Positions 12,942 to 13,102 of a DNA stretch of 64,000 bases are shown here, piece after piece. The stretch's first letter is position 1. Each line of letters opens with the position of its first letter. The translations under genes were made by a program, and so were the position numbers. The DNA comes from Bdellovibrio bacteriovorus (GTDB lineage: Bacteria > Bdellovibrionota > Bdellovibrionia > Bdellovibrionales > Bdellovibrionaceae). The notes under the pieces were generated by a model, which was not told where the DNA came from, ran no database searches, and was given only the letters and a program-made list of their open reading frames with translations. The stretch spans positions 1,426,001-1,490,000 of the forward strand of contig NZ_CP020946.1 in the NCBI RefSeq assembly GCF_002208115.1, read 5' to 3'.

Positions 12942-13000
12942 TGGGGTTGCTAAGTGACCAAAATGCTTGGGAAAAAAATGAAATGATCTAAAAAAACCTT

Positions 13001-13029
13001 TTGCAAGCTCTTGGTATTGCCCCTACCAT
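13001..13029 (+). promoter_or_regulatory. Promoter of candidate small RNA
   Basis: TTGCAA (13001-13006), exactly 17 bases, TACCAT (13024-13029). Transcription would start near 13036, with no reading frame downstream. Confidence 0.6.
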
Positions 13030-13035
13030 TTGAAG

Positions 13036-13102
13036 TAAGGGAGGGGCGATGTGGTCAGGGACGACCGTGGTAGTAAGGATGCTACTGCATCGCTCTATTT
13101 TT
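13036..13102 (+). ncRNA. Candidate structured small RNA with GGA loops
   Basis: About 66 nt between two convergent genes. An outer stem GCGATG/CATCGC (13046-13051 with 13088-13093) encloses two hairpins: GGTC/GACC with loop AGGGAC (13053-13066), and GTAGTA/TGCTAC with loop AGGA (13070-13085, one wobble pair). The outer stem is followed by TCTATTTTT, so it doubles as a terminator. A purine run AAGGGAGGGG precedes it. Two GGA loops plus a 5' GGA tract resemble CsrA/RsmA-titrating RNAs (CsrB/RsmZ type), though this RNA is much shorter. It has its own promoter. No known riboswitch class is recognised. Confidence 0.55.

Follow-up and report, generated by a model that had tools for sequence, protein, structure and literature searches.

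The DNA between dprA and an lptF-type gene of Bdellovibrio bacteriovorus carries promoter-like boxes followed by about 66 nt ending in a T-run, which raises the question of whether a separate RNA is encoded there and which partner it may serve. The locus was analyzed within a window of 64,000 nt (contig NZ_CP020946.1, positions 1,426,001 to 1,490,000). In a preliminary description, made from sequence alone, a very short CsrA-sponge-like or other regulatory RNA was proposed. Conservation shows the locus to be an RNA gene standing on its own, with a predicted promoter and terminator, whereas its transcription is inferred. The RNA is likely (probability about 0.74) a minimal CsrA-titrating RNA of Bdellovibrionales that binds one dimer per molecule; CsrA binding, titration and targets are also inferred.

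Anatomy of the locus

The A-tract stretch upstream of the promoter (Table 1) is conserved throughout the genus, and A-richness persists in the other genera of the family. In most relatives, -35-like (TTGC/TTTGA) and -10-like (TANCAT/TACACT) boxes are found in the same place and accompany the RNA even where the flanking genes differ. As regards independent transcription, promoter-like and terminator elements are conserved and no reading frame is; the transcript itself is predicted from sequence.

Table 1. Features of the RNA locus in window coordinates.
Feature	Position	Strand	Basis or remark
A-tract-rich upstream stretch, UP-element-like	12972..13000	+	role inferred
Promoter TTGCAA-17-TACCAT	13001..13029	+	sequence; similar boxes in most relatives
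TTGCAA box	13001..13006	+	
TACCAT box, after a 17 nt spacer	13024..13029	+	
RNA gene, predicted transcript of ~66 nt	13036..13102	+	covariance models R1/R2
5' single-stranded AAGGGA; AGGGAG may be a third, weaker CsrA site	13037..13042	+	
P1 5' strand GGGGCGAUG, outer stem	13043..13051	+	
P2 hairpin GGUC-AGGGAC-GACC, CsrA-type hexaloop ANGGAY	13053..13066	+	compensated pair changes
Loop 1, hexaloop AGGGAC	13057..13062	+	
P3 hairpin, hexaloop AAGGAU, stem with U-G closing pair	13068..13087	+	loop A.GGA. retained, stem replaced across families
Loop 2, hexaloop AAGGAU	13075..13080	+	
P1 3' strand and U-run; intrinsic terminator whose stem is completed by the RNA 5' end	13088..13102	+	
P1 3' strand CAUCGCUCU	13088..13096	+	
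U-run TTTTT	13098..13102	+	

The RNA is predicted to fold as a closed three-way junction ending in the U-run, with an MFE of -25.5 kcal/mol (z from -3.3 to -3.9; 0 to 1 of 200 shuffles equally stable). The MFE fold closes one extra pair in P3 and leaves the loop AGGA; loop 2 is best read as the U-G-closed hexaloop AAGGAU, since this form is conserved in relatives. In the 5' single-stranded segment, GGGA is retained in f1, the window's own family, and in f6; UGGAG is found in most f10 members, and the site is lost in f4.

Among the anatomical claims of the preliminary description, the promoter TTGCAA-17-TACCAT, the length of about 66 nt and the loop AGGGAC (as a hexaloop on GGUC/GACC) held, as did, as a predicted structure, the three-way junction whose outer stem doubles as the terminator. 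The placement between dprA and an lptF-type gene held in f1. The outer stem of 6 bp failed on length, since P1 comprises 8–9 bp including G-U pairs. Two claims held in part: the loop AGGA is the MFE form, the hexaloop being preferred, and the stated absence of a frame must be qualified, as a frame from ATG 13049 exists but is not conserved.

In f1, dprA (+) and the lptF-type gene (-) flank the RNA at every locus whose flanks are intact; the few f1 departures, L040 and L100 among them, have a downstream gene that is broken or unassigned. Members of f4, f6 and f10 have other neighbors, with the downstream gene on either strand. Because the neighbors change outside f1, the RNA reads as trans-acting. 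A trans-acting RNA gene rather than a cis element is thus the natural reading, inferred from the changing neighbors, the accompanying promoter-like boxes and the lack of a conserved frame.

Distribution and covariation in Bdellovibrionales

According to blastn, the locus is present in 23/23 other sampled genomes of the genus and 13/13 of the family; outside the genus, mainly the 66-nt part remains (77–96% identity), together with A-rich upstream DNA. Two covariance models were built, R1 from 26 sequences of f1 only (alignment A1) and R2 from 36 order-wide sequences (alignment A3). The window's own genome contains a single copy (E 2.8e-22), and no second copy was found in it. R1 reached four families of Bdellovibrionales, with single full-length copies. 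Of 144 genomes in the class, 102 gave an R2 match, and in 96 the E-value was 6.2e-11 or lower; the R2 match table assigns these strong matches to f1 (62/66), f6 (5/5), f10 (5/13) and f4 (24/47). R2 was built partly from sequences that it later found, so that their E-values arise by construction. Because of this partial circularity, the f1-only model R1 provides the independent evidence for f4, f6 and f10, with E from 1e-10 to 1e-3.

In the rest of the phylum, the covariance search detected only weak matches and nothing equally strong. When named genomes were scanned with the f4-type pattern, the matching records belonged to Bdellovibrionales, Bdellovibrionaceae or Pseudobdellovibrionaceae, except for about 8 unrelated ones that apparently arose by chance. 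P1-type RNAs lacking GGA loops were sought by pattern in 141 genomes, and all matches appeared to be due to chance. No Rfam family matched the window or 13 relatives at the gathering threshold, which the CsrA-binding families CsrB, CsrC, RsmX, RsmY, RsmZ and TwoAYGGAY also did not reach; a permissive Rfam search returned only spurious matches with E>1.

The alignments also support the predicted stems. In f1, 98.1% of cells are paired, and four pairs show double changes vs. 0.6 in shuffles. Compensated changes in P2 replace G-C by C-G in L036 and by A-U in L125; in P3, A-U is replaced by U-A in L034 and by C-G in L038. Order-wide, double changes affect 64 cells (27.8 in shuffles), and a covariation score of 0.293 compares with 0.173 (0/500). 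Counting the pairs that have any double change gives 10 vs. 9.1 in shuffles, which is not significant alone. P2 is weakly paired in f4, and P1 is nearly invariant and therefore yields no covariation evidence. The preliminary description would have been refuted by homologous loci in which the stems are not preserved; this check was run and passed, the stems being preserved and covarying.

A separate observation concerns the weak phylum match in genome G208, from another lineage. At L174 1507-1610, this genome contains an intergenic array of three GGA hairpins with the loops AGGAAT, ATGGAT and AAGGAT, the last on a 10-bp stem; the start of the array resembles the window RNA (AAGGGAGGGGC). The array could be a larger RNA of the CsrB/RsmZ kind, or else a leader of the following gene to which CsrA binds. 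In G171, a relative of G208, the reverse complement of L176 at ~1485-1529 carries three intergenic GGA hairpins (AAGGAT, ATGGAT, AGGAT) followed by a T-run, and may represent a CsrA-binding RNA. These multi-GGA arrays are not clearly homologous to the window RNA.

GGA loops, CsrA and FliW

Within the inner region, conservation is highest in the GGA loops. Order-wide, the P3 loop reads A (29/33), N, G (33/36), G (33/36), A (33/36), N in the 36 sequences; both N positions are near-random, and the stem bases differ between families. P2 in f1 and f10 reads C-ANGGAN-G. A high-affinity CsrA/RsmE ligand is an ANGGAN hexaloop placed directly on a stem (PMC4005645), in which the presence of the N matters and not its identity (Duss 2014, for ANGGAX). 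The conserved A, GG and A with a free N thus fit this ligand. Both GGAs are present in 50 of the 56 members examined, which meets the criterion of multiple GGAs in hairpin loops; the exceptions include four of the five f10 members, which have no P3 GGA, and two f4 members without one of the two GGAs. Throughout the 64 kb, both strands considered, 11 ANGGAN hexaloop hairpins were found, and only these two lie within 40 nt of each other; none of 20,000 dinucleotide shuffles gave two such hairpins. The two GGAs are 15–21 nt apart, mostly 18. Since a CsrA dimer bridges sites 10–63 nt apart, with a quoted optimum of >18 nt (PMC7652899), one dimer could bridge both sites.

CsrA was found in 60/60 and FliW in 59/60 of the relatives checked. 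In the window's genome, csrA lies between flgK-flgL and fliW. Its CsrA (75 aa) retains L4, R44 and N55 and possesses the C-terminal extension used by FliW; residue numbers were read off the sequence, and residue roles were taken from PMC11934962 and PMC7652899. Solved CsrA/RsmE chains match it, among them RsmE entries with bound RNA (2jpp series; E 2.7e-15). A host CsrA with an intact RNA-binding face is thus available, as judged by its presence in all relatives checked and by L4 and R44 in the window's own protein. Co-occurrence with CsrA is not discriminating, because CsrA is universal here and is also found in genomes without a detectable RNA copy.

Two further observations were made in the window's genome. 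The flagellar operon flgK-flgL-csrA-fliW is located at L129 2939-6518 and encodes a FliW-type CsrA (C-terminal extension, N55). Near the SD, the flagellin leaders carry ANGGAN motifs; one of them combines a motif on a 4-bp stem with a copy that overlaps the SD. In the leader at L145 (flagellin, G000 C1:3383900-3384310), ACGGAG lies in a short hairpin ~35 nt upstream of the start codon and a second ACGGAG lies over the SD, 21 nt from the first, resembling the arrangement of the CsrA-bound hag leader in Bacillus. Such motifs may mark CsrA targets but are not diagnostic, since ANGGAN motifs are expected at SDs.

The CsrA-sponge interpretation of the preliminary description therefore gains support from the conserved ANGGAN loops, the covarying stems and a CsrA in all relatives checked; that the RNA is expressed, binds CsrA and titrates it is inferred. 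In the proposed mechanism, RNA polymerase would start near 13036; the two ends of the RNA would then pair into the terminator stem P1, which also closes the three-way junction. The junction would present two hairpins, each ANGGAN hexaloop filling one RNA-binding face of a CsrA dimer, and at the 18 nt spacing one dimer could bridge both. An abundant RNA would then titrate CsrA away from mRNA leaders, and FliW would act alongside, using the C-terminal extension of this CsrA to inhibit it. The analysis shows the gene and how it is conserved, a structure backed by covariation, the signature of the loops and their spacing, and that CsrA and FliW are encoded. CsrA binding is a strong inference from this anatomy and is likely, without binding data. 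The step from binding to titration is weaker, since CsrA can also assist sRNA-mRNA pairing, and high abundance would be needed, as the RNA has only two strong sites. The locus is absent from the attack-phase sRNA table of B. bacteriovorus HD100 (PMC3627812; G006 being taken as HD100), which covers attack-phase-induced RNAs only; growth-phase RNAs could not be defined there.

The outer stem was observed to be invariant over the order (13043-13051 and 13088-13092), the inner stems being freely replaced. GGGCG and UG of its 5' strand are present in 36/36 order-wide sequences and the A in 35, and CAUCG of the 3' strand is invariant. A second, sequence-specific role of P1 is possible, because neither a terminator stem nor CsrA needs an invariant P1 sequence.

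Alternative readings and significance

The RNA could be a CsrA-dependent base-pairing sRNA, with CsrA binding the loops as a chaperone or delivery protein and the invariant G-rich 5' part or the P1 strands pairing with mRNA targets. In favor of this, GGGCGAUG/CAUCG is invariant over the order beyond the needs of a terminator stem, and in Bacillus subtilis CsrA is known to promote the pairing of sRNA with mRNA (cited in PMC7652899). However, the invariant bases sit within the most stable helix rather than in a single strand, and no conserved unpaired seed exists elsewhere in the RNA, which makes this explanation unlikely. Recognition of the ANGGAN loops by another protein or by a metabolite is less probable still. 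In its favor, the P1 invariance lacks an explanation, and three-way junctions are common in ligand-binding RNAs; but there is no consistent downstream gene, no Rfam match and no conserved junction core, and no partner other than CsrA is known to us that fits the free drift of exactly the N positions.

The convergent flanking genes in f1 and the terminal U-run could suggest a mere terminator between dprA and lptF. This reading was rejected and can be practically ruled out, as the neighborhood changes outside f1: f4, f6 and f10 keep the RNA amid other genes, whichever way these point, and its loops and promoter-like boxes are kept with it. The same degree of doubt applies to a leader peptide or small ORF from ATG 13049. 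An SD-like GGAGGGG lies just upstream of this open frame, but only 2–3 nt from the ATG; moreover, in some relatives the inner length is not divisible by 3, and alignment columns that vary occur at every codon position. The coding reading was rejected, as the frame is not conserved. Loops acting as SD mimics are improbable, since they almost never read GGAG and retain the A that stands two bases ahead of GGA.

The preferred reading, a CsrA-titrating RNA, places the RNA beside several known systems. RsmX/RsmY/RsmZ and CsrB/CsrC, the CsrA-sequestering sRNAs of Gammaproteobacteria, are likewise stand-alone, with several ANGGAN-type GGA hairpin loops; titration of CsrA is predicted for the RNA described here. 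Unlike those sRNAs, it has 66 nt, two strong sites (one dimer) and a three-way junction closed by the terminator stem; it has no sequence or Rfam similarity to them and is found together with FliW. Dependence on GacA/UvrY was not shown; the BarA-UvrY/GacS-GacA system is described in the literature as characteristic of Gammaproteobacteria. The TwoAYGGAY motif (Weinberg 2010, PMC2864571), compared via Rfam only, also has two hairpins with a GGA hexaloop but differs in taxa, in the lack of an Rfam match, in the ANGGAN loops with free N and in the shared invariant outer stem. The flaA/hag leaders of FliW systems (Campylobacter, Bacillus) share the CsrA-FliW genome context and GGA sites, theirs binding CsrA; they are mRNA leaders, whereas the RNA is non-coding with its own promoter and terminator. 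The APsRNAs and merRNA of B. bacteriovorus HD100 (PMC3627812) are small RNAs of the same predator, but none of the eight coordinates given there corresponds to this locus, and merRNA is a c-di-GMP riboswitch RNA.

CsrA-binding decoy RNAs are thus a known kind, and the family, architecture and lineage are new to Rfam 15 and the literature searched. FliW and sRNA antagonism of CsrA have been called mutually exclusive (PMC7366521), BarA-UvrY and FliW were anticorrelated in a survey (-0.97; PMC4682653), and according to a 2020 review the joint action of FliW and sRNAs on CsrA in any species is still to be determined (PMC7652899). The coexistence of FliW with a putative decoy RNA is the point that would surprise a specialist. 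A bolder reading, for which the arguments are evenly balanced, is that FliW and a one-dimer decoy RNA both antagonize one CsrA, with P1 having a second sequence-specific function. If the decoy reading is true, 66 nt would be unusually small for a CsrA decoy, and Bdellovibrionales would be the first lineage with both types of CsrA antagonist. Since the locus is present in culturable Bdellovibrio, the question of coexistence is directly testable. The RNA is a candidate post-transcriptional regulator for a predator whose switch between attack and growth is poorly understood, and under the bolder reading it may link CsrA to this switch.
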